Below the pieces are notes generated by a model. The model did not search any database, was not told the origin of the DNA, and saw nothing but the letters and a program-made list of their open reading frames with translations. Below, piece after piece: positions 10,978 through 50,784 of a DNA stretch of 64,000 nucleotides; positions within the stretch are counted from its first letter, which is position 1; the number at the start of each line of letters is the position of its first letter. The position numbers were made by a program, and so were the translations under genes. The stretch is from Mya arenaria (taxonomy: Eukaryota > Mollusca > Bivalvia > Myida > Myidae), in NCBI RefSeq assembly GCF_026914265.1, contig NC_069125.1, forward strand, positions 7,460,117-7,524,116, in the 5' to 3' direction.

Positions 10978-13165
10978 TGATACAGTACACTCAACAAGTT
11001 AGACCCACTTTCCTCACTCACTCCGAGGGATAAAGTCGATGATTGCGGGTTTCCTCCGAGGGTAAAACTGTTGCCCTCGCTAAAATCCCCCTGAGTTCCT
11101 CCGAGTGGCTGGCTTACCGCCGAGTTTAATATGAACGATAGCGTTGAGAATCGTCCAATTTTATGATCCCACGGCGGAACTCCCAAGTCTAATCAAATAA
11201 GCAAGAAATCGTTCTTGTTTAAAAGTTATTTATTTTTATGCTTATCCACATTGTTAAGCGTAAAAGATTCTTACATGTACCAATGTTTGATTTGTATTTA
11301 TGTCCGTAAACACCAATTGAATATTTCTGAAATTATAAACATTGAATCATTAAAGTATATCCACTAAGTTATTGCATTATAAAGCAGCCGACTATTTACA
11401 CGATTCTGAAACATGACCTCTGACGTAAAGCGCGTGATCAATACAATGTAGAATATACTATTTATTATTGGTGGTTAAAAATAGCTATGACGTTTCATGG
11501 AATTTTCCACATAAAACGAGGCAAGAAGGCCTTCAAAACCATGCGCTGTGAACTTTGAACGCGTGTTTGACCTCCTGATTTTCCGAAAATGTGTAATATA
11601 GAATTTCTCGGAAGAAATGTGTTTATCAGTCATCAGCAAAAACACGTTTATAAGATCATACATGCCATATCACCCGGAGGGGGATAAAATCCCGCGGAAT
11701 TTCGGTCCATCCCCCGGTCCCCCGGCGGGAGATGCAAATCCCCCGGAATTTCCAAAAAAAAAAATGATTATTTTTTTTAAACCTCCGCTTACGAGCGTGT
11801 TGTCACTGGTTTTATTACCCGAGATTTGATCCGCGTATTTACGGTAAGGAATTTGATGCGCTGTATTTTACATCTGGATTATCGATTGATGGTGTGTATA
11901 CAGCCTTGCACAAACTGCCAATCAGTAGGGTACATGTTTTGATTGTTACACAGTGTGCCATGATAGCGCCTTTGATCTCTGCGTTATACGGTCGAAAGGT
12001 CGCAATAAATTTGTATAGGGGTCACTAATTGTTTGTTTGTTTTTAACCCTGTAAGGGTGTTGACATTAAATTACAAATGAAGATGTTAACACGCAACTAT
12101 TGGACAATTTTCCGACGTGTGAAAATGTTACGGTATACTGTACTCTTTCTGATAATGATGGATTATTCGACAGACAGCTGCCTGGCAGATCACAGAGGCA
12201 GTTTCCTACCATTCCAAAGGTTGCTCTGGCATGCTTGGCAATTCCGCATTCAGATGCTGACCCAGAGCGTTGTTTCAGCATCTTGAGAAAAATTCAGACA
12301 GACTCAAGGTCAAGATTGACTTCAGAAACAATTCACAATCTGCTGAGTGTAAAGTTTAATGAACATAACATTTGCAGCTCATTTGTTCCTTCCAAGGACA
12401 TGCTATATAAATCAATCAATTCATGCAATTAAATGTGCATGTGTTTGCTATCCTGATTGTCATGTGGACCTAGTGCTGTGAAGTGCCTAAAAATTCATTT
12501 TTTTTAGTAGTGCTTTTTGTAAAAATTCACTTTTTTTATTATTTAACATTTTATATATATATATATATACATTGAAGTGTTATATGCATAATATATTATG
12601 AATTGATGTTAGTTCAGTTGTCATTGCAATATTGAATGAATATTTTTATATAATTATGTGAATAAAATACAAAAAATTGATATTTCGTGAACTTAGACTT
12701 TCGATATAAAATCCCCCTGAATACTTTCCAAATCCCCCTAAATTTTAAGCATTTTGACCAAATCTCATGGAATGGTCTCCAAAAAATATGGCATGTATGT
12801 AAGATACATGTGCAACTAGTGAAATACGACTGCATTCTTGTGGTAAGCTAACTTTATGCAAAACGGGCAGAGGAAAAATAATAATAGCATTTTACTGGAG
12901 CTGTCTTAATCGGTTTAAAATATTAATAAAATAAATATAACTTTAGCGTAGATTCTTATCTAGTGTCGGCAGAGTTTCGCGGAGTTAACCCCTCCGAGGA
13001 ACGCCAAGTTCGTTATTCTTCGGTCGACTGATCACCCTCCGAGGGCCTTAAATTCAAACTCCGAGGAACGCGGACAGTTGATAAAATCATTGTGTTGGCC
13101 GCGATAGCAAAAATCCGCAGAGGGAAACGGAAAGTGGGTCTAACTCGTTGAGTGTAGTGTAATCA
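10978..13165. mobile_element. Terminal-inverted-repeat DNA element, non-autonomous, split by a nested hAT
   Basis: The left end (from 10978) and the reverse complement of the right end (13165 inward) share about 37 bp, including the phrases TACACTCAAC and GTTAGACCCACTTTCC. Both sub-terminal regions are rich in CTCCGAG motifs. With the nested hAT removed, about 1 kb remains and contains no transposase of its own. The terminal phrase CACTACA is reminiscent of CMC (CACTA/Chapaev) ends, but no clear target-site duplication is visible, so the superfamily is open. Confidence 0.65.
11657..12799 (+). mobile_element. hAT transposon, internally deleted, nested
   Basis: 14-bp inverted ends CATACATGCCATAT (11657-11670; reverse complement at 12786-12799) are flanked by the 6-bp direct repeat TAAGAT (11651-11656 and 12800-12805), a probable target-site duplication. 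Inside, frame 12100-12432 encodes the C-terminal hAT dimerisation domain, with FPTIPKVALACLAIPHSDAD and CFSILRKIQTDSRSRL. The rest of the transposase is absent, so the copy is defective. A 6-bp duplication fits hAT subgroups with shorter-than-8-bp duplications. Confidence 0.8.
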
Positions 13166-13765: not shown

Positions 13766-13903
13766 GTGACAGGTTGAAGCAGAAGTGACCATGGACATGC
13801 GGTGATCAAGATGGCATTGCCTATTGCAGCGATAGTGTGTATCGTGCTCGCATGCTGGGTGCTGGTAGTTTTAGGACTATTTGCATTATACATTTTCCTG
13901 AAG
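13766..13903 (+). CDS. Cys-rich gene, first coding exon (signal anchor)
   Basis: Acceptor TTTTTTGCAG ends at 13765 and donor GTAAGA starts at 13904. Coding begins at 13811. The 31 residues encoded here are nearly all one transmembrane helix ending in IFLK. The exon ends on a complete codon. Confidence 0.75.
13791..13805 (+). promoter_or_regulatory. Short upstream ORF in the 5' leader
   Basis: ATG GAC ATG CGG TGA ends five bases before the proposed start codon at 13811, with a second in-frame ATG at 13797. Such a close uORF could lower translation of the main frame. The main ATG has a purine at -3 and G at +4. Confidence 0.5.
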
Positions 13904-16900
13904 GTAAGATTCGTTTTAAAAGTGAAGTGTTTTTCTACACAGGAAATTTTGAAGTATGAAAGGATTTTTTTGAAGGGATGTAGGTGATAACAGCAGTCAT
14001 GGAAATTAGAGTTCTGGCTGAACAAGCCCTAATTCTTCTACTATCGCTCGGCATCAAATTTGTTAACAAGCCATGCTATAAAAATTCAGAATTTGAGCAG
14101 CCTGGAAGACAATTAAACAGTGCAGGGAGTGGTGTCCCCTCTACTTTCCAAAAAAATCTTATTCATTAATTGTGCAATCCTTACATTGATTTGCATAGTT
14201 TCCAATTTGATCCAGGTTTTACCATGTCTAATGATAAACTCTTGAGAACTTTTAAGAAGTGCTTATTAGTTTTAGTGTGTTCCGGCATAAGTACTATACA
14301 TAACAGTTACGTTTGCATGGGTTAGAATGTTCTTACGGGGTGTGTAAGCACCGAAATGTACTTGCTATGCAATCAGTTCTCAAAATATGCACAAGTCTTA
14401 TTCGGGAGAAAAGCTCCTGGCACCACAGTTTGCACAATATTGAAACAAAATAGTAACCAGCCTACAGTAGAAGTGTTCTTACACGGTACCACATTCTCCG
14501 ATTTTCGAAATATGTCCGTTTAATGAAATTATCAAATAAAATATAAGTCATACTCACGTTTGTTCATGTAAACATAGGGCACAGCTCCATCACGAAAGTG
14601 TTGACAGCTCTTTTTCTTTGCACCACCGTAAAGTGGTGGAGCTGGCATTTAGAGGCCGTGTATTAAGAACATAGTTTTAAGACAACAAAATCTATAATTT
14701 TGAGACCAATAAGTATATAATAACTAATCATGAAAGATTGATAAAACAATTCTTATCAAAAAATTAAAGATCAGGAGTATCCCAATAAACACATTTATAA
14801 ATACTGGTATAACTTTATATAAATTATTATTGCCTTAGAATATTAGAGGAAAATGATACCAAAACATTTGAGATAATCAACGATCAATGCAAGTAAAGAA
14901 CAATTTTAACACTATAGTACAACTTCATTTTTTATTTTTTTAATGTAATTAGTAGCCTTTTTCTGCATTTGTATTATATAATAAACGATACCTTAAATCT
15001 AATAAATTTTAAATGCTATCACAATTAATTAGTAAGTATGACTATAAAACATTCGTTCTAGTAATTTAGTAAAGTTAAATAAAATAGACGTTTGAATATT
15101 AACTTAGTGAATACCATAACAAAAACAAATTTTTCACCTTAATAGTCAAATCAAGCATCCGAACATTCATAAACGTGAAGACAATTTTAATGATAATTAT
15201 CATTCATTTTCTAGTATTTAACCCCAGCTTCACCGGTAAGATTAACAATTAGCCAGAAAAGTTCCTGGGAAAAGCAGATACGGTAACTGATTGTAGCACC
15301 TCTGTTGTTGAATAAATACAGCCTAATTTATTGGTAAAAGGTTACAAGTATAGTTAGCACCTTTTTCCACTGTAAATAGTTTACATTTTGTTTGGATGAA
15401 TGTATCAACTGTACTTGGAACCTTTTACCTGAACAAATTTTTCCTGTAAGTAGTTGCTAAATATAATTCTATTAATTTTGCCCAAATAAGGAATGAACTT
15501 GAACTAGAAAATTTACCCACACATAAAAGGTACATTGTATAATTGAACAAACACAAAATGTCATATTTGACCAAAATTGATGTTGGCACTCTTTACATTT
15601 GAGCCCTTGCATTGATGGATTACCATATTACTTGGTACAAATTTTGTCCTTATTGAGACAATGTGCAGTGACCTTGACCCGGATCCATACCTCAATGGTC
15701 AAGGTCACATCTGACATTTAAAGGTCATAGTACATAGTCACATGCTTTTACATTTACATTTAGCAGTGTATCCATGTCAATTCTTACTGGCTTTATTGAC
15801 CTTAAACATTTCATGTACTTTTAGCAACAATAACTTTAATGATCAAAGTGAAGAACTCAAACCAATTGCAATTTGTGCCAGTAATCCATCATGAAGTTTC
15901 AGGTCCATATTATGACATTAATGCTTAATAGAGGATAAGATATAAATGTTAATTGAAGGTGTTAAACAAGTGGCACAGATTGATACTTAGTGCACTCTAC
16001 CAAGCATTATCATTATGTGCAACAAGTTTAATATTTAAAAAAACAATGAACACAAATGTGAAAATATATTTATAACATGTGTTATCTCTTCAAAAGCAGT
16101 AAAACAATGTTATGACGTCACCACAATATATATGTATCACTTTATCGAAACTACTTAAGGCTTGCTATTTCATCGATGTTATAAATCAAGGACTCATTTT
16201 CCTTCCTATTTTTAGCCAAAATAACCTTGACATTGATCTTGAATACACTACACACAATATGAAAAACTTTAACAAATATCCTTTTATAATATCATTTTAT
16301 ATGTTCAAATATCCAAGAATATTTAAGTTACCTATCAAACAACTTGTATTTCCTATATTCTAACTCTTGACCAGTGGGTGTGTACAATTTTTGTCAAATT
16401 CAACGTACCTGTCAGGTTGCGAGAAAAACAAAATATACAAAAAAAACAACGGAGGGGGATATAGCCGTCCTTTGGAATGCCTTGTTTAGATTATAATTGG
16501 TCTGGCTTACGACTAATAAATATCCTGCTTTTTGTTCTTGATCACTTGATGGTCTGCATCGTCAAATGTAATATTTTTTCCCTCTTCAGCACCTGGACAG
16601 TCTTTACAGCAACTGCATATGACATTGGAATTCTAAAATATATTGCATTCTGCTCAAAACTGGGGCAATGTTTAAAGTGCCAATCTACTACAATGTAATA
16701 ATAAAATTAGCAACATTTTTGCTTATTTAAATCCTAAAGCAGAAATTGGCGTAAAATATAGTTTTTATACATTTGAGCATGCTATTTTATATGAATAGGC
16801 TAGCATTTGCAATACACTGCAGAAAATGTTCTTTGTAATTATTTTTTGACATACTAAATACATGTAAGAGATTGCAACGAAATGGTACCCAGGTTTGAGG

Positions 16901-19900
16901 AGAGAAATTTTACTCACATTTTACAACTTCATAGGCAGCTCTTGACCACTGGTTTAAAGCTGCACTCTCACAGATTTACCATTTTTATAACTTTTTTATT
17001 TTTTGTCTTGGAAAGAGCAAATGTTTTCATAAATATCTGCAAATCAATGATATAAGTTTGCTGACAAAAAATCAGATCTTAGATTTTCATATTTCCGTTC
17101 GAAAATTTATGTTTAATGGCTTAAACCGTTACTAACAGTTTAAGAAAAATGCATAAAACATCATTTTTTAAACTTAAATATAAAAATTTGCACTCTAATA
17201 TTTTGGCAGCAGTCTTATATAACAGGTTTCCATGGATTCTCGCAAAAATTGGCTCGTCCCAAGACAAAAAATAACAAAGTTGTCAAAACGTTCAATCTGT
17301 GAAAGAGTAGCTTTAAAGGAGAGTGAAAACAGTTTGATACACTATAAAATATGATACACTATAGAATATAAGGAGTTTGTATCCAGAATTCAGCCATTCA
17401 AGCTCTGAATACATTTCATTGTCTTTGATAAAGTTGAATAAATGTTTTTATCTTCGTAGGGTCGTGGTTCGTGTCAATGTGAGTGTCAGGCGTGCGGCAA
17501 AGAAGGAGACGAGAGCTGTACTTGTTGTAGAAACCTTGGTCAAGCTGAGTGTTGCGCCTGCGATCCCAGCTTGCAACGCTGTCTCAACTCTTGTTGTCCA
17601 AAAAAGGTTTGATATATATTTTATAAAACCCCTGAATGTATCAATTTGAACTGTAGATTGTCATAACTTTGTGTCTATTTAAGAGTACTGGCAAAATTGT
17701 GAGGTTTAAAATTTTGCAACTCTTGCATTAACATTGCAAACAATGATAAACTGATGTTGCATGAGGTTTTAAACTGCAACTTGATCCATTCTTGAATTTT
17801 ATTTAATAATAACCTTGAGCAAAAGATCTGTATATAAAATATAGTTTTTCACCATTCCTTAAATAAACTGCCTTTTGGCAATTGCAGTTATCATCTGATG
17901 AACGCAACATCTTCCGATATGTTTGGAACACAAATCATATTAAAAATCATTTATCTTGTAATTGTTTGTATTGTGTGAGCAGGCACCAAAAACTTAAATC
18001 AACATGTTAGAAAGTGTATATTTATTATGTGTTAAATGTATTGTTGTCATTAGTGTTGAATTTCAAGTTAAAAAGTGATTTTAAATGATTGATTTTTATC
18101 CGTGTAATTGTGACGTCATTTGATAAACTGTTTCCGATTATGGACGGTTCGTTCTATTTACATGGATGAGAAAGAATTACTGTTAAGGTTTTCTTTAATG
18201 AAATGAAGTATTTTTTTTAACAATTCATGAATGAAATATTGCTGGTGTTGATATAAGTAATGAATTGCGGGATTGATGTCATTATCAGGGATTATGTGGA
18301 TATGAACACAATTGGGCTAGTTTTAGTTTTAAGTGTGGAGTCCTCAGGAGCAATCCTGCAATTTTTTCCTTAAGTGAATCTATTATGGTTAAATCATGAA
18401 TGTATGTTTTAACTTCTTCATGACTGTGTTTGTTTAAGGAATGAATTGCGGGCTTGATGTCATTATCGGGGTATGAACGCAATTGGACTGGTCAAAGTGT
18501 GTGGAGTCCGAAGGAGATTCTGTAAATAGAACGACCCGACTGTTACCGGAAGCATTTATTTCAAATGACGTCACAATATCGCGGGAATAGATCAACCACT
18601 TGAAATCACTTTTAGACGTAAAATTCGAACAGTTACGGCAACTACACATTTAAATTTAAGAAAAATAACACTTTCTAAAATGTTGATTTATCTTTTACGG
18701 GACCTTCTGACACAATACAAACAATAACAAGATAAATATTTGTCATGTATATTGTTATGTAATGAATTTAGATCCGAACATATCCAAAGATGTTGGGTTC
18801 ATCGATTGATGAACGCAATTGCCAAAAGGCAATTCATTTAAGGAATGGAAGTTGAGGTGTAAATATTTATTGTTAGAAATGTACTATACGCATAATGCTG
18901 AAAATGGTGTATGTTACAAGAAAATCTCCGTGTTAATCAGTGTTATAAACTTGAAACAATGAATTAGAATTTCTTCAAAAGGACTTGGAGATTGATATCT
19001 GCCTAATGGAAAAGCAAAGGAATCTTAAATTACTGTTTGGTTCCCTTAAGGCTCACTGTTTCTTCCTATTATTGCTTAAAAAAATCATAATAATAATATT
19101 GTCCTTATTTTATGTGGAGAAGATATTTGACAATGAAATACGGTCCACTCATAAAATAATATGAACTCAGCGTCCACACGAGAGGGCGACTCGGGTGAAG
19201 TTGTCACCTAAAATCTCCAGGCTTTCGTCATATGTAACATCAAAGTAATATTGACTTCTACAATTTTTAGATCTGTCAACCAGCGAGTATTTGGTCACTG
19301 CTCCAGTCAAAACATGGCAATTATCCATTTATAATCAGTAATCTCCTAATCTGATAATTGGGTCGTGAATCATCCAATTATCGAACAACGCCAGTTGGTG
19401 GAGCTATTGAACATCAACTAATCAGAATGTTCATTCAGAAGACCTTGTTATAGTGAAAAAAGTACAAAATGAACACAGAAATTTATCATTTCTAAAAGAA
19501 GTATGAGCTCATTTTAATATCATATGTACATATCAGTACAACAGCAAACAAGAATTAAAATTCATGAATATTTTATGCACATGGTTATATTATAAAATAC
19601 ATGTTTTATATTACAGAAGTGCAGTTGTGTTGACATACTGCTGTGCCAGTGTTGCGCTGAGGAAGGCCAGGACTCATGTCTTGTGAATGTAAGTGAAACC
19701 TGTCTACTTTCTCAATGTTGTTTGTTGTTTTGTTTCATTCCGGTTACAAATGTTAAGCATCCCCCTTCAATGTTCATCGTGCTGTTAGGATCTGATGAGA
19801 TTCATCTAAAATTTAAAATAATTTCAAATTTCTAATGCAGAACAATTTGCTAACCTTTGGCTAAAATATGAGATCTAAAATGTTGTACACAATATTAATG

Positions 19901-22900
19901 TCAAAATAAGTATAGGCCTGCAAGCCAGCCCTTCACTGGTAGAATGTTTGCAGAGCTAGTTCAAATTCTGAATGTTGTATAGCCGGGCCTGTTACGAAAT
20001 CGGGCTTTAACCAAAAGTCTCATTTCAATGACTGCAGTTTGTGCATGATACTAAACATGTTAAGCTAAGTCTCTATACAAATATAAAATATCGGATTGAA
20101 ATTTTACCCGTACACTGTATTGATAGGAATAAAATGTTAAAACGTTAAGGCTTTTAGAGCAAATTATAAAAATCGTTTTCAGTCAATGCTATACTTGATT
20201 TCTTTGTGTCATTTGTTATAAGGATGAGCATGTGGGATGTGGCATCTAGTTACAAGATGCATTGGCTGCACATATTATATCAATTAAATAGTATAAGTAT
20301 TGCAAAAGGCTATAAATGCCCTGCTTTCTTTTAAAAGCAAGCTTTGTAGGCATAGATTAACTTTAAATTTAAATGCTTTTTCTTCATTTCATTTTATGGT
20401 TTGATTTTTTTTTTGTAAATTTATGATTCAGTATTTCCAATAATTTAAATGTGTCTTTTTGAATATTATCTATGTATAAATGTGATAAAATAAGCCACCA
20501 AAGCCAGATATCTAACCCAGGTCGCTGGATTGCTGGTCTAAGCTATTATATGTATACAGGGGTAATAAAAAAAACCGCTGGAATTTATAATAGCACCTTT
20601 TCATTTTGACTAAGATTTATAGATCATCATTACTTTTTTCTACTGTTCATACCTTTCATGCAAGCATGTTTCTTTTTTTGTCCAGTTGTGCAAGGACTGT
20701 GGAACGCTGCAGAATCAGCCTATAACAGGCAGATAATCGCACAGACACTTATTTCCATATAGTTTCATACACTCATGTGTTGTCTTTCTGTTGTAAGTAT
20801 GTCAAGGATATAGAGCAAAGGGGATATTGCCAGCCTTGATTTTTGATACTCTTTTAACAAGACTTCACTATCATAATTACTTCCCTTGGTATCAAACATG
20901 GCCAGGTTCAAGCATTAACTATGAAAACTAAGGTTCACTCTTGTCCTGTCAATCTCAGTGTTTGATATTAGCACAAAGCTGCAAGCCCTGCACTTGTCCT
21001 TGAAGTTGTCGAATTCTTGACTTTTAATAGGAGGTCTTAATATAATTTGAAATGGCAAGCACTTGTATAAAGACTCAGAATTATTCATCCAAAAGTCTTA
21101 TTCTAATGACTACACTCTTCAATTGAAAGGAGGAAAAGTTGTACAGAGGTAGAATATTCAAAAGAAAACAGACTTTATTGCTATAATACTAATAAAAATA
21201 ATGATATAAATTACAGGGACAAGCCCAGTATAAAGAGTCCAAACGACTGCAAGAGACAAACACATACAAACACTATAAACAGATCATAGACACATAGCTT
21301 ACCACAGCTTAAAACAAAGAAAAATAAAGAAAAACTTGTAAGTTTTGGGTCATTTATAATGTAAAGTCGGAATACCTCCGTTACATTGTATAACTTTCAA
21401 TACTTGACTGAAGTGCTACAAGAGTGAAAAGATTTGAGTCTAATTAATATGTGTAATTGCGTGAACCTAGTTACCATAGTTAGCGCTTAAAACTGGCCAC
21501 TATATTAACATCATCATTAACAACTGTTGGACACTGAAGTATTTCACTGTATCATTTCTAACCTGTACTTGTATACTTGTACATACATTAAATAACATGT
21601 GAACATAATAATATTAATTTGTGTTTATATTGAGCTAGAATGCATTATTCGCTTGACATTTGTCAGAATTTTTGCTGATTTTTTAATGAACTTTTTCTTT
21701 GTGAAAAAAATGTGATAATTATTTCAGAAAAATGATAAAAATTCTGGCAATGTAAGTAAACTATTTAAAAGCATTAATCATGGGGCAATTGTGTGAGCAA
21801 TATGTACTAGAATTCATCAAACATTTAATAATACCATAAAGCTTATGTTGAGTCAGAAAAAATGCCAGCTTTCATATATTCAGTCTTTCTAGAAGTGTGT
21901 GTTCCTGTGAGTTTTAAGACGCTATTGCTCTCCAGGTCGTGGTGCAACCATTTAGAGCAAAATGATAAGCCAAAAAACTACTCATGCACAGAGTTTTGCT
22001 CATTTTAGTTTTTTTTATAATGATATATAATATAAATTACAAACATGAACTTGACGGGTGTTCTGTCAAATCTACTGCTTTAGGGGACACTTGTTTTTAT
22101 GTAATTTATGAACAATTGTTTTTTTTTAAGTCGTATCAATTTTCAAATAAAAATTATTTGATTTCTAGAGTCCTCTTGTATTGACAACACATTAAAGTGC
22201 TGCTGCTGCTGCTGCTGTAAATAACAGAAATATAGGTTTACATTTGCCTACATAGATCGAAGAGCCTTCTGAATAATAATCATTTAAACAGTTTTATGTT
22301 CAAGGGAGTACCCCCACTAGAGGTGTATTGTTACAGAAGTTTCTGTGAAACCCACAAGCTCTAAATCTTTGATCATTGTTTTGCTTAATAGACAAACGCT
22401 TATATCGCTTTACCTTTAATTTTAAAGATACATGATTTAGCACGATTGCTTCTGACACACAGTCATGTTGCTTTATTTTGTTGATAAAATCATTTTATGC
22501 TTAAAATGTTTCTCTGTGGCAAGTCTTTTTTCTTTTATTTTTACAATATTAAAATTTAGAAAAATGCAGGAAAGTGCCCAGTAGTTAAACCTACAGTCCA
22601 AACTTGCTATGTCGAATTTGTCGGGACCTAGGAAAAAAGTTCGAGAAAACGAACAATCGACACATCCGCATACAAAAATAAAGCACCAAACCCAACCCAT
22701 TTGAGTCTGAATTTTGTCTAATGTTTAAATCCTCAATGTAATATATCGAGTTTGGACTGTATTAGAATTTACAATATAAATCAGATTTAGAGGTGCATGG
22801 TGAGGGCACAAGTGACACTGCTAGTGATGCAATCACCACAAACAGACCTCATAAACCACGACTTATATTTGCTCTTCATATGATCCATTTTCATTTTTTT

Positions 22901-25900
22901 TTTCAATTTGTTTGTTTTTGACAACCAAGTAAATTTCTGCTTTTTAATTGGGCTTTTTCCTACATAGTTGTATTACACATTTATAATGGTCACTTTACAT
23001 TCAGACTTTTCTCTCTATTTAGAATATGCTTTCCAACAAAGTGCTTTGGGTGCTTTGCTGGTGAAGGTTTATTAATTCAGCATTCCCTTACATGAATGTA
23101 ACTGGCAAGGGTTATGAGCAAGATGTTGTTGAACTTTTTATGTGCAAGTTTTTCTCTGATATAATGACACTTTGATTTCATACTGCTTCCATACAAATTA
23201 TTGTGAAGTAAAATAACTAATTACTTGTTATTACTGTTAGCAACATTTCCCAAATCAATGGATATTACAACATTTCATCCACAATTTGTTACTGCTGCTT
23301 AGAATTTACGTTTTATGTTGCATTATTCATACATGATTCACATCTTCCACACACTTACTCAATTCAAAGTTAATGTGTCATGCAGTACAAATGGACTAAT
23401 CTTTAAACATTCTTTTTGAGTCTTTATGCCAACAAAGACTTTATACTTCAAAGTAATCAAATTACATTTAACATAAATTAAAAAAATAAACTTATTTGTA
23501 CTTGATGGCCTGTGCTTTAAATCCAACATTACCACAAAATATACGAGTTTCGAAAAAGGTATATTTACTTAGAGAATACGTCGCCTCACCTCTTTAACTT
23601 GTTTTCAATTATTAGTAGAAATGTAGCTGTGGTGACAAAAGTTGATCAGATGATTTTATGTTTTGTCTTAGTAACTGTTTTGCTTTTGCTATGTTTTATG
23701 TACTTTGCACAGTAATCATACACATGTCAATTAATAATAATAAATCAATGAAAATGTGAAAAATATTTTATTGAAGTTTTGTCTTCATATTTGCGGTCTG
23801 TTTTCATTGACTGTCGGTATAGTACTGATTATATAGATAGACATATTTAACATATTGTGTAATCATTAGCATTCCGTTATTTTAACATGTTTATGATGTG
23901 TTTGTGTGAAGGAAAAAAGTACAGATTACAGTTTGTAATATTCATGGGATTAAAAAAATTTAGAATGCAATGATTACACAAATGATAGTGATATGATACT
24001 AATCTTCATCAACTAACATTTTGTGTGCTTTTCTTAGGCAGTGTTTGCATTATTTGTGTTGCACAAATTAACTGACGAAATAAATTCCATTTTAAACCTA
24101 AAATACTAATGACGATTTATTCAATATGTGTTTAAGAAATAAAAGTTCAAATTATTTCATAATTGAGGATTTGTTAGGTCTATTATCTGCTTACCTGTTA
24201 ACTCTGTTCAATTCAAGAAAATTATTTGCTTAACTGTGTTCATTTCAAGGAACATTATATTACATTTCAAATTTTATCAGAACAATGTTTATTTTGACTA
24301 TCAAGGTTAGCATTGATTACAAGTTTTTGATAAAATACAGTTTAATAAACATAATAATAATTATACTAGTATCACTCCATTTCCTGTAGGTGTTTGGGGT
24401 TCATAAATTGTACAAATATCTGCACTTTGTATATAATAATATTTCCCTCTCCTATTAACAAAACTTTTTTGCTGCTTTTAATGAGTGTATGGAACTGTCC
24501 GTTTTTCATAAGCTTCGATTCTTGTTGCAAATGGAAGTGGAAAAAAAAACATGCTAGCTTTGATATGTCAAAATAATGTGTTATTTGCCTGTTTGTTTTG
24601 TGTATAAGTTTTGTGAAATTCAATCATTTGTCCGACTTAAATTTTATAGAAAGATTTCATGAATTGCTATAATTTTATCAGCATGTTTATGTTTGAATGT
24701 ATGATATAACTTTTAAATTCAATATTTCCTTTCCTTTCCCAGAAGCTAGGCTGCAAAACAGGGCTCGGGTGTTGCGGTACTGATTGTTGCGATTGTAGGC
24801 CTAGCTGCGATTTGTGTAATTGCTGTGAAAGCTGTGGACCTTTTATATGCTGTTGCCTAGAGATAAGACTTGTTTCCAAATCTTCATCAACTGCAAAATA
24901 TAGAACACAGTCTTCTTCATCGTCTGTTGACCAGGCTGGTATTTTTAAACCCCAAGAGGAGAAAGAAACGCCAAGAATTGTTCCCTCCGAAAGAAATGCA
25001 GTACAGAACCAAAGAAAAAGGCCTGTGCAGACCGTGAAAATGCATAGTGACCCTAATGTATCTTTAAACAAAATGAAATTCAAAAGTAAAAGTCAGCCGT
25101 TTGATATAAAGGACAGTAAACCTGTAAGAAAGGTAACTATAGATAGAAAGACTCCGGGAAAGACACCAAGGTCTTTACCCAAACCTCCGGATCTTGGAGA
25201 AAATAAATCCGTTCACAAAGCTGCTAGAACTAAACTACCAGCAGCCAGTGAATTGAAAGAAGTGCCTGTCAGTTGTCTAAATAATGTGCCTTTACATCAC
25301 TCTAATGGTAGACATTCAGGGAGAGTTCAAAGTGATCCTGACCTTATACTTGGACTACCTCAGCACTGTGACATTTTATCTCTTTCATATGGAAGTAACG
25401 CAAGTATGTCAAATATACGATTGAGTATGAATGAACAGTTGGAGCCTGGTTCTATTCTTGATGGTTCTGGAACACACAGAAGTTCTGCAGGAGACTCTGT
25501 GTTCTATGGTGTAACCAGCACACCTAGAGTTCAAGGTCAGGTGCCTACCTTGACCTCTCCACGACCCCTGCCAGTGCCAAAGGATAGATAGCACATTCTC
25601 ATGTTCTGTTCTATGTAAGTTTTACATTGGTAATCTATATTGTATGCGCATCTTTATGAACACATTAACATAGCTTTCTTTCTTAAATACAGATTAACAG
25701 ACTTAGTGAATTGAAAGGTGATATGGTAAGGCATGGTAAGGGTTATGTTGACTGTTTAAAAGTTTAGTTAAGTTGCTGTTATTAAGAAAACTACATCACA
25801 ATTGTATTTGCCAACTGTTGCAAAGGAGCTGTGAAGAATAACACGATATTGTTAGATGTAAATTTTAGGAATCGAGTAATTATTGTTCTGAAAAATAATT

Positions 25901-28900
25901 TACCTTATATGAAAATATGTAAACAATTTGAAAGTTTTGAAATGATAACATTTTTACTCTTTTCTTATAAACATTAGAGTAACTATTATTACCATTTTGT
26001 AGATAACCTTAGTTGGGTGAAATATGTCTAAATTGGCTTTTTCAAGCAAAATGATCGGGGTTTCTTTTCTTTTGTGTCTTTCAAGCTTGACGATTTATTT
26101 TAACACATTACTCTCATGTCTTTGAAATAAGTAAGCTACAGCCGGTTATTTCTTATTTACCTGCTTGACCTTTTATTCTTCTCAAATCTTTTATGTGTTT
26201 TTTATCATTGTTTGCTTTCAGCTGTGTAAATGCCAGTATGACTGCAAATATACCATCGACGACTGGAGCGACAGACTCCAAATGAAATGTAGCCAGTGCC
26301 AATGCGACTGTTCTCGCTTAGCCTTTAATTCTGCCTGCTGTCTTTGCATCATTGCCAACAACTTGTTCAGTAAGTTTAAAACAGACTTAACGGAGTGCCA
26401 GATTGACCAATCCAACTATAAAGAAGTTCTGATTTGCTGCAGAAGAATCGTATGTTGTTGGCCCACTGACAACTACTGTGCACCATGTTGTTACTTTTGT
26501 AAGCACCAACTCTGTAAAAAGAATGATAATTGCTGTAAAGCTCCAGATTGTTCTGATTGTAAAGATTGTAAAGATTGCAAATTTGATTTAGATTGTGATT
26601 TGGATGATTGTTACTGTTGCCAAGATAGAACACGTTTCAAAAAAGGTTGTTGTAGCGACCAATTTAGTAACATTTGTACATGTGTAAATTGTCTAGAAAA
26701 TGGGAAACAAGTTCACTGGGATGTTACAATAGACAATGACACCTTTAAAGTTTGTCAAGGGTGTCATATTGTGTTTCAAGAGTTATCCGTTAGTGATGCA
26801 GAGTGCTGCGATAGTTATGAAAGGCTTCATATGCATGGGAGAAGATGCACATGTTTTGGATGCCACATTTATGGCATCCTACCATACCCTTTAAATGGCA
26901 AGTTTAAATGTTTAGGGCTACAGAGGAAAGACCAAGACTATTATTCAAAATGTCCACTTCATTGTACTGCTAATAATTTTGTTGTAGGAACCGTTGCAAT
27001 TGCTTTCCAGATATGTTACTTCTTCGTTTATAATGTTATCTCGATTGTGCTTGCCATTTTAGCAGTGCCACTTAGTATATTGATTAAGGTTTTCAAAGTA
27101 CTGTTTTGCAAGTGCTCCGACTTGGTTGACAGTGGGTTTATCCTGTGTCTACATTGGAAACAGACACAGGGGGAAAGTAGTGAATCTTCAGGTATACCCC
27201 AACCTGAAACTGTTACCATAGATGAACAGTACACTGCATGTGAGTTCTGCTGCTGTTGTGCATTGCACTATTGTAATATCTTAGACTGCGACCTTAGTCC
27301 AAAATCTCGGAAGCAATTACATCAGTCTATTGACCAAACGAGGCGTGCCCAAAGTGAGCCTGGGTTTAATAGTGGCTTGATACCAGCTGGATTACAGTTG
27401 AGGGCAATACATTCATCTCCCTATCCAGGATCAAACCCATCGCATTATACCGGTAGACATCCCTCTCCACTTTCTCTTGTGGTTGAGGAGAATGAAGATG
27501 AAGATCAAGCAAATGATGAGGCTCTTCAGAGAAGTAAATATACACATAGAGAATCTAATTTAAGAGCACAAATGGGTAGTCAACATTATGATTTACCAGA
27601 TAACTACTTTTCAAGTGTAACCCAACAGCCAAGTAGATTACCAAGCACAAACCTCGATGACATTTCTAGACTTTTTAATCGCCCGGAGTCGCGATTGACT
27701 GAAAGAAATGGTGAATATTATGAAAACTATGATCCATACGCTGAAACAAGCACCCCTTTGTATGCAAATATTGATCGTGGTCATTTAAGGGAACATTTCC
27801 CCCAAAGTGATGATTCAATTCAACGTCCAGCATCAGCACATGATTATGAAAACATGCAACAGATAATTACTGCACAACCGTCATCAAAAGGAAGTTCCCA
27901 TGCTGCAACTTTGTCTAGTAGACATTCAACACAGGGCAAGCCTGGACCCATGGAAGACAGAACTACTTTTAGAGAACCAACTAGTATGGATGAGCTGCCG
28001 ATTCGTCAACCTTTGGATAGAAGGCGTTCTCATGAGATTGCCAGTAACCGATCTCTACGTCACAAGTACTCTCAAGAATATCTAAATAAACGAGAATCTC
28101 GTGGCGAGTTGAGATCACACTTACGATCAAACGCTGAAGAGTTGAACAATTTATCCAGCATGTCATGTGAATATGACGGAAGTGATGTTACTAGTACTGA
28201 AGAATCTGAAAACGAAGTGACACAAAATCAATTGTATCTAGATCATCTTATGAAAGACGATAAAACAGTCCGCATTTCAAATCAAGGAGCTCGTTCAAAG
28301 ATGCTAAGCACGAAATCAATAAATGTAAATCAAAGTAAGCTTAGTTCCCAGAGCAGCGGTTACTTAAAACCACGAGTGGGTCGACAATACTCAGAGCATG
28401 ATTATGATGAACCTGTGTTCTACGAAGATTTGCAGAAATATTCCAGTGAAGAAGAAAACATTTATGCTTCACCACGTAACTTAAGTCAGGCATGTATGCC
28501 CTCACAGAGAGCCAAAAGAGCAAGTCGCGAATATCAAAATCAGAAAAGCATGGAAATCCTAGTTAAAAAGTCAGAAAGTAACAAACGAAAAATGTCACCA
28601 GTAAAGAAAAAACACGATGTAGAATCGAATGGTGGTCTCGAAAAAGGTTACAAAGATGGAACAAATGAAAATGGTAATGATGGAACAGAATATGGAAAGG
28701 GTTCTAAATCTTTAGAGAAGTCCGGGACAATAAGTGAACGGCTGAAAAAAATACGGTCACGGTCATCAGTTTCAGTAGATCCAGGTACTAAATCGTCTGC
28801 CTTTGAAGAGGAAAGTTCAGCTAATAACTCGGCGACGGTAAGATCCCCATTTGAATTATTCCAAGCAAAGTCAGTAGGTGGGGAAGAGATGACTGTTGTT

Positions 28901-28933
28901 GACATTGAAGGTTTTGAGGAAGATCGATTGTAA
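13811..28933 (+). CDS. Membrane-anchored cysteine-rich protein, alternatively spliced (longest isoform)
   Basis: Not a family I recognise. Coding exons of the longest form: 13811-13903, 17460-17606, 19617-19688, 26222-28933, all joined in phase 0, about 1007 residues. Exon 1 is almost wholly a hydrophobic signal anchor (residues about 4-29, AAIVCIVLACWVLVVLGLFA). The next two exons are dense in cysteine (13 of 49 and 6 of 24 residues) with CxC and CC motifs (CQCECQAC, SCTCC). The last exon adds about 250 Cys-rich residues, a hydrophobic stretch of about 40 residues and a long hydrophilic Ser/Tyr-rich tail. Two other 3' exons start in the same phase (20686, 24743), so the gene probably makes proteins of about 120, 386 and 1007 residues sharing one anchor. 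CxC clusters suggest metal binding, and juxtamembrane CC runs suggest palmitoylation; both are inference. Confidence 0.75.
13904..17459. other. First coding intron of the Cys-rich gene
   Basis: No exon recognised. It contains a TTAA-flanked MITE (16954-17316) and a diverged TGACCTTGACC-like phrase near 15670-15700. Confidence 0.5.
16954..17316. mobile_element. TTAA-flanked MITE, copy 1
   Basis: TTAA duplications bracket inverted ends starting AGCTGCACTCTCACAGATT. The inverted repeat extends about 65 bp, through TATTTTTTGTCTTGG. A second copy lies at 58924-59268. TTAA targets are used by piggyBac and Kolobok elements; no coding capacity. Confidence 0.8.
17460..17606 (+). CDS. Cys-rich gene, second coding exon
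   Basis: 49 codons, 13 of them cysteine, with motifs CQCECQAC, CTCC, ECCAC and CCPKK. The acceptor ends TTCGTAG; the donor GTTTGA is weak but phase-consistent. The density resembles metallothionein-like CxC clusters, without full family similarity. Confidence 0.75.
17852..18848. mobile_element. Foldback DNA element with long inverted arms
   Basis: The left arm from 17852 and right arm to 18848 are diverged inverted copies: CCATTCCTTAAAT, GCCTTTTGGCAATTG, then further in TGACGTCATTTGA and CGTTCTATTTAC. Arms are roughly 300 bp. The centre holds a direct duplication (GAATTGCGGG...TTGATGTCATTATC) at about 18260 and 18440. No transposase; target duplication unclear. Confidence 0.75.
19617..19688 (+). 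CDS. Cys-rich gene, third coding exon
   Basis: 24 codons, six of them cysteine (KCSCV, CQCC, SCLVN), between acceptor TATTACAG and donor GTAAGT. It starts and ends in phase 0, so it can be spliced to any of the three terminal exons. Confidence 0.75.
19905..20060 (+). repeat. Dispersed repeat of the CAAGCCC...CTGCACTGG type
   Basis: Shares the phrases CACTGGTA, CAAATTCTGAAT, TATAGC and CAAAAGTCT in order with a copy at 52990-53170 inside the CARF-like gene, and more weakly with 20960-21120. Family unknown. Confidence 0.5.
20686..20736 (+). CDS. Cys-rich gene, alternative terminal exon A (short)
   Basis: After a strong acceptor (TTTTTTTGTCCAG) the frame reads LCKDCGTLQNQPITGR then stop. Its first residues mirror the LCKC opening of the long terminal exon at 26222. 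There is no donor before the stop, and an AATAAA-type signal lies within the next 500 bp, so it would give a protein of about 120 residues ending soon after the Cys cluster. Confidence 0.55.
   Translation: MCKDCGTLQNQPITGR
20737..24742. other. Intron between alternative terminal exons A and B
   Basis: Besides the candidate microexon at 21728 and a short CTG-triplet run at about 22199-22218, no gene or element was recognised. It probably includes the 3' untranslated region of the exon A isoform. Confidence 0.45.
21728..21751 (+). CDS. Candidate 24-nt microexon of the Cys-rich gene
   Basis: A phase-0, stop-free 24-base segment encoding KNDKNSGN sits between a pyrimidine-rich acceptor (TTATTTCAG) and a perfect GTAAGT donor. 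It would insert eight polar residues without changing frame. No other support; chance occurrence in 4 kb of intron is possible. Confidence 0.3.
24743..25591 (+). CDS. Cys-rich gene, alternative terminal exon B
   Basis: After acceptor TTTCCTTTCCCAG the frame gives 282 residues to a TAG stop. It opens with KLGCKTGLGCCGTDCCDC and FICCCLEIRL, a Cys cluster, then becomes a basic, Ser/Pro-rich, probably disordered tail. Notable motifs are RVQSDPDL and KMHSDPN (R/K-x-x-S-D-P, 14-3-3 mode-I-like where arginine is at -3) and a PxxP-rich end PRPLPVPKDR, a potential SH3 ligand. A nominal ATG-like start inside the exon is not needed; the exon is read through from upstream. Confidence 0.7.
   Translation, partial: KLGCKTGLGCCGTDCCDCRPSCDLCNCCESCGPFICCCLEIRLVSKSSSTAKYRTQSSSSSVDQAGIFKPQEEKETPRIVPSERNAVQNQRKRPVQTVKMHSDPNVSLNKMKFKSKSQPFDIKDSKPVRKVTIDRKTPGKTPRSLPKPPDLGENKSVHKAARTKLPAASELKEVPVSCLNNVPLHHSNGRHSGRVQSDPDLILGLPQHCDILSLSYGSNASMSNIRLSMNEQLEPGSILDGSGTHRSSAGDSVFYGVTSTPRVQGQVPTLTSPRPLPVPKDR
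26222..28933 (+). CDS. Cys-rich gene, alternative terminal exon C (long tail)
   Basis: A 2.7-kb stop-free exon after acceptor TTTGCTTTCAG, giving 903 residues. Residues about 1-250 are Cys-rich with CSQCQCDC, CCRRIVCCW and an Asp/Lys/Cys run (CSDCKDCKDCK). Residues about 253-295 are hydrophobic (VGTVAIAFQICYFFVYNVIS onward), either a hairpin or a long membrane helix, followed by FCKC and CEFCCCC. The rest is hydrophilic, with RRAQSEPGF (R-x-x-S-x-P) and a series of SH2-type tyrosines: YDLP, YENY, YDPY, YANI, YENM, YDEP, YEDL, YASP. This looks like a docking scaffold. No enzyme domain is visible. Confidence 0.8.
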   Translation: MCKCQYDCKYTIDDWSDRLQMKCSQCQCDCSRLAFNSACCLCIIANNLFSKFKTDLTECQIDQSNYKEVLICCRRIVCCWPTDNYCAPCCYFCKHQLCKKNDNCCKAPDCSDCKDCKDCKFDLDCDLDDCYCCQDRTRFKKGCCSDQFSNICTCVNCLENGKQVHWDVTIDNDTFKVCQGCHIVFQELSVSDAECCDSYERLHMHGRRCTCFGCHIYGILPYPLNGKFKCLGLQRKDQDYYSKCPLHCTANNFVVGTVAIAFQICYFFVYNVISIVLAILAVPLSILIKVFKVLFCKCSDLVDSGFILCLHWKQTQGESSESSGIPQPETVTIDEQYTACEFCCCCALHYCNILDCDLSPKSRKQLHQSIDQTRRAQSEPGFNSGLIPAGLQLRAIHSSPYPGSNPSHYTGRHPSPLSLVVEENEDEDQANDEALQRSKYTHRESNLRAQMGSQHYDLPDNYFSSVTQQPSRLPSTNLDDISRLFNRPESRLTERNGEYYENYDPYAETSTPLYANIDRGHLREHFPQSDDSIQRPASAHDYENMQQIITAQPSSKGSSHAATLSSRHSTQGKPGPMEDRTTFREPTSMDELPIRQPLDRRRSHEIASNRSLRHKYSQEYLNKRESRGELRSHLRSNAEELNNLSSMSCEYDGSDVTSTEESENEVTQNQLYLDHLMKDDKTVRISNQGARSKMLSTKSINVNQSKLSSQSSGYLKPRVGRQYSEHDYDEPVFYEDLQKYSSEEENIYASPRNLSQACMPSQRAKRASREYQNQKSMEILVKKSESNKRKMSPVKKKHDVESNGGLEKGYKDGTNENGNDGTEYGKGSKSLEKSGTISERLKKIRSRSSVSVDPGTKSSAFEEESSANNSATVRSPFELFQAKSVGGEEMTVVDIEGFEEDRL

Positions 28934-29640
28934 TGGAATGTATGAGCGTAAATGTGGTGCACTCGAACTTGAGACATGCAGAATGGTACTAAATGAAACG
29001 TATTATTTTAGTTTAATTAGATGAACCAGTACTGCCTTCACGCGTTTAATATAACTGATTATGAACATAAACGTTCAGCCCTACTTGCTCATATTCTTTA
29101 TGCATGCATGTGATTTTGTGCATTGTCACATGGAATTTTATTCCTGTGTAATTTACGCAAAACATATTACGAGCAACTGTGATGTACTGTATTCCGTCCA
29201 AATGTTCTTTGTTTTATTTTTCCTTTCTTTGTTTTTGAACACAGTATAATATGTAATCCATATTTTATTGTATTTATGTTTACACTCTTTGGGAATGTTT
29301 TAATCTTAGTCATGTAAATGTTATTGCACTAAATGTTTGCTTTTATGACCCATTATTCTCTTAAGTAGAATTTCAATTCAATTTGTTTATCGATTTCATG
29401 CATAATTAGGAATGGTTATGTATTATTATGCCATTGAACATTTTAAGTATTATTATGAGGAAAACTCTTTTCTTATTCACTGATAAAGGTACCTGTCATT
29501 TTTAGTCATTTATAGATAAATTGCCTCATAATATTTCTTGAAATGCGTTTTGCAAGTTAGTTTATGCATCTCTTTCATCATGTATTAATTTATTATTGTT
29601 AGTTGAGAGTTTGAATAAATAATGCTATTAATTGTACTAT
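28934..29640 (+). other. 3' untranslated region of the long isoform
   Basis: AT-rich sequence after the TAA stop, with a canonical AATAAA at 29614-29619 as likely polyadenylation signal. The exact cleavage site cannot be seen. Confidence 0.55.
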
Positions 29641-47603: not shown

Positions 47604-49391
47604 TCTTGTGCGCAACACTCGCTAGCCATGTGCCCAACACTCGCTAGCCTTATGCCCAACACTCACTAGCCTTGTGCCCAACACTCGCTAGCCATGTGCC
47701 CAACACTCGCTAGCCATGTGCCCAACACTCGCTAGTCTTGTGCCCAACACTCGCTAGCCTTGTGCCCAACACTCGCTAGCCTTGTGCCCAACACTCGCTA
47801 GTCATGTGCCCAACACTTGCCAGCCTTGTGCCCAACACTCACTTGCCTTGTGCCCAGCACTCACTGGTCTTGTGCCCAACACTCGCTAGACTTGTGCCCA
47901 ACACTCGCTAGCCTTGTGCCCAACACTCGCTAGCCGTGTGCCCAACACTCACTAGACTTGTGCCCAACACTCACTTGCCTTGTGCCCAACACTCACTAGA
48001 CTTGTGCCCAACACTCACTTGCCTTGTGCCCAACACTCACTTGCCTTGTGCCCAACACTCACTAGTCTTGTGCCCAACACTCACTTGCCTTGTGCCCAAC
48101 ACTCACTAGTCTTGTGTCCAACACTCACTAGACTTGTGCCCAACACTCACTAGACTTGTGCCCAACACTCGCTTGCCTTTTGCCCAACACTCACTAGTCT
48201 TGTGCCCAACACTCACTTGCCTTGTGCCCAACACTCGCTAGTCTTGTGTCCAACACTCACTAGACTTGTGCCCAACACTCACTAGACTTGTGCCCAACAC
48301 TCACTAGACTTGTGCCCAACACTCACTAGACTTGTGCCCAATACTCACTAGACTTGTGCCCAATACTCACTTGCCTTGTGCCCAACACTCACTAGTCTTG
48401 TGCCCAACACTCACTTACCTTGTGCCCAACACTCACTAGTCTTGTGTCCAACACTCACTAGACTTGTGCCCAACACTCGTTAGCCTTGTGCCCAACACTC
48501 GCTAGCCGTGTGCCCAACACTCACTAGACTTGTGCCCAACACTCACTTGCCTTGTGCCCAACACTCACTTGCCTTGTGCCCAACACTCACTAGACTTGTG
48601 CCCAACACTCACTTGCCTTGTGCCCAACACTCACTTGCCTTGTGCCCAACACTCACTAGTCTTGTGCCCAACACTCACTTGCCTTGTGCCCAACACTCAC
48701 TAGTCTTGTGTCCAACACTCACTAGACTTGTGCCCAACACTCACTAGCCTTGTGCCCAACACTCACTAGACTTGTGCCCAACATTCACTAGCCTTGTGCC
48801 CAACACTCACCAGACTTGTGCCCAGCACTCACTTGCCTTGTGCCCAACACTCACTTGCCTTGTGCCCAACACTCACTAGACTTGTGCCCAACACTCAGTT
48901 GCCTTGTGCCCAACACTCACTTGCCTTGTGCCCAACACTCACTAGTCTTGTGCCCAACACTCACTTGCCTTGTGCCCAACACTCACTAGTCTTGTGTCCA
49001 ACACTCACTAGACTTGTGCCCAACACTCACTACATTTGTGCCCAACACTCACTAGACTTGTGCCCAACACTCACTAGACTTGTTTCAACACTCACTACAC
49101 TTGTGCCCAACACTCATTAGACTTGTTTCAACACTCACTACACTTGTGCCCAACACTCACTACACTTGTGCCCAACACTCACTACCCAACACTCACTAGA
49201 CTTGTGCCCAACACTCACTAGACTTGTGTCCAACACTCACTAGCCTTGTGCCCAACACTCGCTAGCCTTGTGCCCAACACTCACTTGTCTTGTGCCCAAC
49301 ACTCACTTGTCTTGTGCCCAACACTCACTAGACTTGTGCCCAACACTCAACTGTCTTGTGCCCAACACTCACTAGACTTGTGCCCAACACT
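47604..49391 (+). repeat. 22-bp minisatellite, about 80 copies
   Basis: The core TGTGCCCAACACTCACT repeats every 22 bp with few indels. Variable positions (ACTAGA, ACTAGT, ACTTGC, GCTAGC; TGTCC for TGCCC) recur in fixed orders, showing higher-order duplication. Since 22 is not a multiple of three, all three frames cycle through the same 22-residue peptide; the stop-free runs are an artefact. There are no unique spacers, so it is not CRISPR-like. Confidence 0.95.
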
Positions 49392-50784
49392 GTCTCATTG
49401 TGGTGTTATTCTAAAATACTCTGCTAAATGTTGGCTGGATCATTTGCTGAAATTAGTGCTTACGGAAAAACTACTGTTGAAGGAGGGGTGGAAGTATCAG
49501 TTTTTCTTTTCGAGACAAGATCTTGTTTTTTAACTTTTATTTCATACTTTCTCCATCATTTGTATGTGCCTTGAAACGTGACCTGTATGCAAATACATTT
49601 ACAATAAATGCTTGACATTTTAATTAATTTCTTACCGCCAACCCTCTGTTTTTTATAGTGCAAGTAATGATTGTCCAAACATGATATATATCGTTTATTA
49701 ATACCAATTCTTCAACATTCAAAGTAAATACCATTATTATATTAAGTTTTAAACACACAAAGTTGCATGTATACCTGTTAAGTTTTCTTCACCAAAACAC
49801 GGACAATAAATGAACTGTCATTTCTTAAATTTAACTCAAACTTGAGAAAATAATCTCATAATATAAAGCAACATACCAATTGTTCAGAATTAAAGGTAAC
49901 CATAACAAATTTCAACAATATGATTCTTCTCAAAACAAATTTCTAAGTAGATATTGGCCTGGAAGGTCGATCATTCTCCTAAAATCCTAAAAAAATGTCC
50001 GTTTCGGGTAACCCGACCCTACCTTTAAAAATGCGCTGACCCTAACTATTTTTTCCGTTTCTGAGCAAAAAAATATTCGTTAGCGAATAGAGAGTTACGA
50101 AGAGTGGATAAATGCAGATTTTAATCAGAATTATTGTTTATATGATAAAACAAAGTCAGGCAATGACAGTAATGTAGGAAAGACTGCCATGTGAAAGAAA
50201 ACACTCTAAACTTATAACAGATTTTGAAAAAAAATAAAAATTAATAAATCCCTACCTACCCTACCTAGAAATTTTGGGAAGGTTACCCTAAACAATTATT
50301 TTTTTTGGCCCCATATGAAAATTTAAACATTCTATAACTGACTACAAAGGTTTAATGCTATTTGAGGTGCTGTCTTTTGCATACACAACTATTTTTATTT
50401 CACAAATCAAATTAGGCATACCAAGATAGCACTTAACATTGATGAATAGCTTTAAATATAAATAAATGAAACTATTTCTGAATCGTATTACGACCATTTT
50501 ACGCAATTTTATCAACAAATGTCCACAACTTGCATTGACCATATTCAGTTTCTGCAATAATTATCATTGAACACTATTATAATGCCATGTTTCAAAATCC
50601 ATTCATCACTGTTTGAAATAATAATTAATACCAAACAATAATACACTTTATAACACAAAGGTCTGGGCAGCATTACAGAAGCATCACTTAGAGAAGCATC
50701 ACAAGATAAAATTGTACCTTTTTTCATAAATTCAACAATTACCAATGTTTTGTTATACCACTGGTAGGAAGTGCAAATCACTCG
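49392..50784. other. Intergenic, including the 3' untranslated region of the CARF-like gene
   Basis: No gene seen. At 49990-50310 a dispersed-repeat-like stretch starts GGGTAACCCGACCCTACC and ends with an imperfect inverted CCTACC...GGTTACCC. AATAAA on the minus strand at 50394-50399 is the likely polyadenylation signal of the gene ending at 50785. Confidence 0.45.

Follow-up and report, generated by a model that had tools for sequence, protein, structure and literature searches.

Transmembrane adaptors and the clam locus

Transmembrane adaptors carry a short outside part, one transmembrane segment and an extended region whose Tyr sites retain SH2 proteins at the membrane, and four of the seven, LAT, LIME, NTAL and PAG, possess a CXXC acylation motif, as stated in passages of PMC2803307. 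In a stretch of 64,000 nucleotides (nt) of the clam Mya arenaria (contig NC_069125.1, positions 7,460,117 to 7,524,116; hereafter the window) three small exons, e1 to e3, encode a putative membrane-anchored head and are followed on the same strand by three candidate 3' exons, 4a, 4b and 4c. Our reading is that this is one gene with an N-terminal membrane anchor, whose cytoplasmic end would be set by the 3' acceptor joined to e3 and which would work in the manner of LAT and PAG; judged from the DNA, we give it a probability of about 0.38. Its features, with their basis in brackets, are as follows.

13766..13810, + strand: piece of the 5' untranslated region (UTR) in the first coding exon (acceptor rank 5/3214; sequence)
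13811..13903, + strand: e1, start codon, MALP and likely transmembrane helix, about residues 5-30 (translation; donor rank 6/3672)
17460..17606, + strand: e2, Cys-rich module with juxtamembrane CxCxCxxC (translation, codon usage; donor 17606 weak, rank 470/3672)
19617..19688, + strand: e3, Cys-rich module with CLVN at its end, phase 0 (translation, codon usage; donor rank 57/3672)
20686..20736, + strand: 4a, possible terminal exon, LCKDCGTLQNQPITGR plus stop (acceptor rank 9/3214; LCK start like 4c)
24743..25591, + strand: 4b, 282-residue tail plus stop, about 50 Cys-rich residues and then 230 Ser-rich basic ones (acceptor rank 1/3214; translation, open-frame chance, codon usage)
25132..25133, + strand: candidate internal phase-0 donor of 4b (AAG/GTAACT), which could splice part of 4b to 4c (donor scoring)
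26222..28933, + strand: 4c, 903-residue tail plus stop, with a Cys-rich part, a hydrophobic stretch and a Tyr-motif tail (acceptor rank 29/3214; translation, open-frame chance, codon usage)
26978..27109, + strand: hydrophobic stretch of 44 residues in 4c, either a second transmembrane segment or a membrane hairpin (hydropathy)
27587..28543, + strand: nine Tyr in YxN, YxxP or YxxM motifs, codons at 27587, 27719, 27761, 27845, 28079, 28361, 28403, 28463 and 28532 (residue positions converted by hand)
29614..29619, + strand: AATAAA, likely 3' end signal for 4c transcripts and perhaps for 4b too (motif scan)

Like LAT, PAG/Cbp, LIME and NTAL, the predicted clam protein would have a very short N-terminal part, one likely N-terminal hydrophobic helix and a CxxC close behind it. 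Head plus 4c shares with LAT and PAG, at motif level, an extended tail bearing SH2-type Tyr motifs and the lack of a recognised enzyme domain. Unlike in LAT and PAG, a Cys-rich module of 73 residues follows the transmembrane segment, the tails would be alternative, and 4c contributes another Cys-rich region together with a second hydrophobic stretch. Head plus 4b contains one transmembrane-like segment and head plus 4c the additional stretch of 44 residues, and a long tail with several SH2-type Tyr motifs is found in 4c but not in 4b. Since homology was detected neither with Pfam nor with NCBIfam, LAT and PAG themselves not having been compared directly, we class the gene as one working like LAT and PAG, not as a member of their group.

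Other described systems share single traits with the locus. Skipped terminal exons, or intronic polyadenylation, of the IgM type combine a common upstream part with alternative 3' exons having their own stops, as do the clam exons; IgM switches the loss of its anchor, whereas the clam anchor would stay common and the tails change (comparison with parts of PMC5928244). A further difference is that 4b has no AATAAA or ATTAAA of its own before 4c. MDFI and MDFIC, proteins with the MyoD family inhibitor (I-mfa) domain, are PIEZO partners according to part of PMC12626003. They resemble the clam protein in dense Cys and a membrane link, but the latter has no PF15316 match and its hhalign scores lie within those of Cys-preserving shuffles. 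The likeness to granulin-type CC...CC...CCP modules consists in the TCCR...CC...CCP look of e2, whereas neither the scores of e2 plus e3 nor Pfam support it.

The shared head and its candidate ends

Splice sites were scored with an approximate matrix and ranked among the + strand sites of the window. As background we used 20 stretches of the same genome (200 kb, 34.7% GC), from which the stop frequency was also taken. Translation of the genomic DNA gives a head of 104 residues, consisting of four residues, one likely transmembrane helix and the Cys-rich module, from exons of 93, 147 and 72 nt with phase 0 at every junction. It begins with MALP, continues with hydrophobic residues at about 5-30 and then reads KGRGSCQCECQAC; 21 of the 104 residues are Cys. 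The hydrophobic segment is about 26 residues long (maximum Kyte-Doolittle value 3.1), no charged residue precedes it, KGRG follows it and the charge over the next 15 residues is +2. A juxtamembrane CxxC motif (motif level only) is present as CQAC at residues 40-43, preceded by C36 and C38.

The acceptor at 13766 ranks so high that a non-coding first exon further upstream is probable. An upstream open reading frame of four codons (ATGGACATGCGGTGA, ACCATGG context) lies at 13791-13805, its end 5 nt upstream of the main ATG (AAGATGG), and could tune the translation of every isoform. The acceptors of e2 and e3, ranking 86 and 263 among the 3214 + strand AG sites, are a weak point of the gene model. 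Read-through of the e2 donor at 17606 adds one residue before a stop, and failed splicing there would be a possible fourth protein end.

From the acceptors at 20686, 24743 and 26222 the head continues in frame to stops after 16, 282 and 903 residues, giving isoforms of 120, 386 and 1007 residues in total. The earlier note had proposed this shared head with its three ends, and translation, phase 0 and the separate stops confirm this arrangement in the DNA; the acceptors which it called strong rank 9, 1 and 29 of 3214. Its description of the tails as Cys-rich fits only their front parts, roughly residues 1-50 of 4b and 1-370 of 4c, beyond which both are Cys-poor. In 4b, 14 Cys fall in the first 52 residues; the remaining 230 have only 2, along with 31 Ser and 3 Tyr, and include one R-x-x-S-x-P and, as a sequence of the SH3-ligand type, RSLPKPP once, neither of them commoner than in shuffles. 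In 4c, 46 Cys occur in the initial 275 residues, 10 in the following 95 and only 2 in the last 533, where 24 Tyr and 78 Ser are also found. Residues 357-400 of the head plus 4c isoform form the hydrophobic stretch of 44 residues.

4b and 4c are coding. An open frame of 282 codons has a chance of 1.2e-8 and one of 903 codons a chance of 4e-26, so that these two in-frame 3' exons with their own stops lie beyond chance; for the 16 codons of 4a the value is about 0.36. With 4c as the training set for codon usage, the log-odds of e2, e3 and each half of 4b are positive in frame 0 and negative in the other frames; over the 630 nt past the 4b stop they are negative in every frame. They are not supportive for 4a (-0.12) and for e1 (-0.49), the latter encoding the hydrophobic helix.

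Even when the open codons upstream of its acceptor are included, the frame of 4b lacks an ATG ahead of codon 100, and its Cys module therefore depends on an upstream exon in phase 0. The 4c frame, treated in the same way, first shows an ATG at codon 21, in the weak context CTCCAAATGA, and 4c probably depends on such an exon as well. Between 19700 and 26221 there are six exons running from an ATG to a phase-0 donor (at least 15 codons, donor score at least 1). Three of them are in the 4b frame, one is in another frame within the 4b exon and two lie elsewhere (21862-21906 and 22986-23060). With a control rate of 20 in 33.9 kb, equal to 3.8 per 6.5 kb, no alternative first exon of at least 15 codons stands out. 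The head thus appears to be the best upstream partner seen for the tails, short of proof, and the simplest reading of the DNA is that a single anchor serves two tails or more.

How the 3' ends might be chosen is suggested by the signals around them. Among human skipped-terminal-exon events, 84% are associated with a signal of the AATAAA/ATTAAA type, as given in a portion of PMC5928244. The 630 nt that separate the stop of 4b from the acceptor of 4c contain neither hexamer (chance P ~0.17), which favours a choice of acceptor with a common 3' end of 4b and 4c. The two may share the 3' end at 29.6 kb and differ only in the acceptor used. Since the 4b acceptor is the strongest on the + strand of the window, the distant 4c would need help or a block of 4b. 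AATAAA occurs behind 4a at 21191 and 21323, which is uninformative given a background rate of 1.75 AATAAA/ATTAAA in every 630 nt. Two fair phase-0 donors lie within 4b, AAG/GTAACT at 25132 and CAG/GTGCCT at 25540, and a further donor, at 25614, is located 23 nt past the 4b stop.

Tyrosine motifs, topology and rival readings

Motifs of the YxN kind are those of Grb2, YxxP of Crk and YxxM of PI3K. Of the 24 Tyr in the final 533 residues of 4c, 9 are found in such SH2-type motifs compared to 3.1 expected, a value reached by 1 of 2000 shuffles for motif classes picked after inspection of the tail. YxN occurs five times (1.4 expected, P 0.0095) and YxxP four times (1.3 expected, P 0.03). Among the 15 Tyr in the preceding 370 residues of 4c, the same patterns are seen twice (YCAP and YCN), and 4b contains no YxN, YxxM or YxxP.

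According to our proposal, the four N-terminal residues of the head would lie outside and its Cys inside, where they are probably S-acylated. Head plus 4c would be a docking scaffold with a Cys-rich, perhaps metal-binding part, a membrane hairpin and the tail of 533 residues with nine motif Tyr; the second hydrophobic stretch is read as a hairpin because the tail motifs need the cytosol. Head plus 4b would retain anchor and Cys but carry a Ser-rich basic tail, thus occupying the same membrane place without SH2 recruitment, and 4a, if used, would give a nearly tailless anchor. The choice of acceptor would then switch phosphotyrosine docking on or off, and the 4c sequence would be 3' UTR in the 4b mRNA. 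A bolder version, which we hold to be improbable, is that of a LAT/PAG-like scaffold of independent origin outside vertebrates with its own off-switch, the three acceptors yielding scaffold (903), docking-silent form (282) and near-tailless decoy (16).

Several points weigh against the adaptor-type reading. The splice junctions are predictions from genomic DNA, and the e2 donor AAG/GTTTGA is very weak (rank 470/3672). For the soft-shell clam genome, RNA-seq was produced from six tissues according to passages of PMC10663159. Library searches with Pfam and NCBIfam found no sequence relative of an adaptor. Besides the post hoc choice of the Tyr motif classes, YxxM is found once with 0.5 expected (P 0.4), on the same Tyr as one YxN, and acidic residues around the Tyr of the 4c tail are not significantly enriched (P 0.06 to 0.18). 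The second hydrophobic stretch fits a hairpin but also a crossing helix. A signal-free stretch like the 630 nt behind 4b arises by chance with P ~0.17, and the variant signals TATAAA (25966) and AATACA (25686) lie between 4b and 4c.

The main rival, in our view unlikely, is a receptor-like topology. Here e1 would act either as a signal peptide or as an N-inside anchor, the Cys parts would be lumenal and disulphide-bonded, and the stretch in 4c would cross back so that the Tyr tail alone is cytoplasmic; 4a and 4b would end lumenally, perhaps as decoys. An extracellular location is common for Cys-dense modules, and a second hydrophobic segment is indeed found upstream of the Tyr tail. However, no charge precedes the first segment and +2 follows in the 15 residues behind it, its ~26 residues are long for a signal peptide, a single N-glycosylation sequon occurs before the second segment, and there is no granulin-like identity. 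The distribution of the CxxC motifs, 15 of 17 ahead of the second segment and two behind, also speaks against this topology. Still less likely appears a serial use of the tails, with a phase-0 donor of 4b (25132 or 25540) spliced to 4c and head, part of 4b and 4c united in one protein. Both donors are fair and all frames are compatible, but 4b remains open and coding-like over 153 codons past 25132 (P 5e-5), indicating at least partial use of the 4b stop; an extra isoform would still be compatible with this. We consider it the least likely of the rivals that there are two genes, head plus 4b forming one and 4c being a separate downstream transcript starting from Met21 or an unseen first exon. 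The ATG at codon 21 would leave most of 4c downstream of it, yet the 20 codons before it are Cys-bearing and stand behind a phase-0 acceptor, the context of Met21 is weak, and there is the lack of an outstanding first exon mentioned above.

Whether 4a is a real third end or a chance acceptor or dead remnant, leaving two tails only, is in our estimate evenly balanced, and the latter is compatible with the adaptor-type reading. Its 16 open codons fit chance, its codon usage lends no support, the surroundings of 4a and 4c share no DNA similarity, and the AATAAA copies behind it are no evidence at the given background. Against chance stand the acceptor rank of 9/3214 and the first codons. Two Cys within six codons plus at least 16 open codons were seen at 8 of 1416 control acceptor-like sites, and LCK as first codons, or a start aligning to 4c as well as that of 4a, at none of the 1416, both features having been chosen after they were seen in 4a. 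The control sites were those with an acceptor score of at least 2 on both strands of the 200 kb and the window, the five acceptors of the gene excluded. The LCK-start DNA of 4a and 4c, TTGTGCAAG and CTGTGTAAA, shows three synonymous differences, and the DNA around 4a matches only itself in the genome. With a good acceptor, an LCK start and no coding signal, 4a as a third end is suggestive only. The single anchor with three tails of the earlier note is partly supported: the two long tails are coding, no rival first exon of 15 codons or more stands out, and the third tail is tentative.

Relatives sought, neighbouring features and significance

In the clam genome (1,216,080,610 bases in 18 contigs; such searches score the best candidates only) the Cys part of 4b, the whole of 4b, the three head exons, the front of 4c and its back each matched only themselves. 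Ten of 11 overlapping protein pieces had no Pfam family at E<=10 and the remaining one matched PPL4 at E 0.11, below the family cut-off; none of three pieces had an NCBIfam family at E<=1. The PDB gave no relative for the front of 4c, three non-significant matches for the head plus the Cys part of 4b (E 0.15 to 0.17) and 17 non-significant ones for a 4c piece, all sequences of retinol-binding protein (E 0.3 to 0.65). As long shots, the front of 4c and 4b were searched in viral contigs and the whole of 4c in prokaryote contigs without a confirmed relative, and Rfam had no family at cut-off anywhere in the window.

The look of 4b and 4c prompted a comparison with I-mfa/MDFI, whose identity with the clam protein is not supported. 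PF15316 matched nothing in the genome at E<=10, which does not demonstrate absence as 14 control genomes gave no match either. The pairwise counts were 2 of 500 plain shuffles for 4c, 7 for the head and 102 for 4b, and with Cys-preserving or block shuffles 5 to 23 of 500 for head and 4c and 144 and 151 for 4b; the nominally low values of head and 4c are the best of several tries. With hhalign and a two-sequence profile, all four pieces fell within the range of 40 Cys-preserving shuffles each. Granulin was rejected as well: compared with two granulins, e2 plus e3 scored below the mean of Cys-preserving shuffles, and Pfam gave no match. Tandem duplication of the tails was likewise not supported. 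The tails of 4b and 4c aligned no better than shuffles, their Cys parts reached a score attained by 35 of 500 shuffles, and neither e2 plus e3 against 4b or 4c nor the DNA around the three acceptors did better than shuffles. The LCK start common to 4a and 4c is the sole remaining likeness among the tails.

Elsewhere in the window, an open reading frame with an hAT transposase dimerisation region (PF05699, E 4e-9) is located at 12070-12432. A 22-bp minisatellite with at least ~72 copies of CTTGTGCCCAACACTCACTAGC occupies 47605-49391, and the GC skew in 48001-50000 is -0.40. On the minus strand at 56012-56365 an open reading frame shows a sub-threshold match to ALS2CR8 (PF15299, E 0.002). Two arrays of apparently the same 60-bp repeat follow at 56409-56675 and 57764-57933, about 1.1 kb apart. 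In one of the background loci (L009), open stretches with an acidic stretch followed by a Cys run (EECFCCCC...) occur seven times in 10 kb as a repeat.

The earlier note knew no family with this layout. The sequence searches agree with it, but the working layout of head plus 4c does resemble that of transmembrane adaptors, as far as these are described in the parts of PMC2803307 used here. Making tails by alternative 3' exons is already known from other genes, and the adaptor-type reading is a testable proposal.

We know of no LAT/PAG-type adaptor in this animal group, and neither such a gene nor an invertebrate adaptor of this kind was among the literature matches listed. If the gene model alone is right, M. 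arenaria still has a well-defined gene without a family in the libraries searched. If the proposal as a whole is true, a single anchor would carry two unrelated long C-terminal tails, each encoded by one exon, and splicing would suffice to determine whether SH2 proteins are recruited by a membrane anchor.

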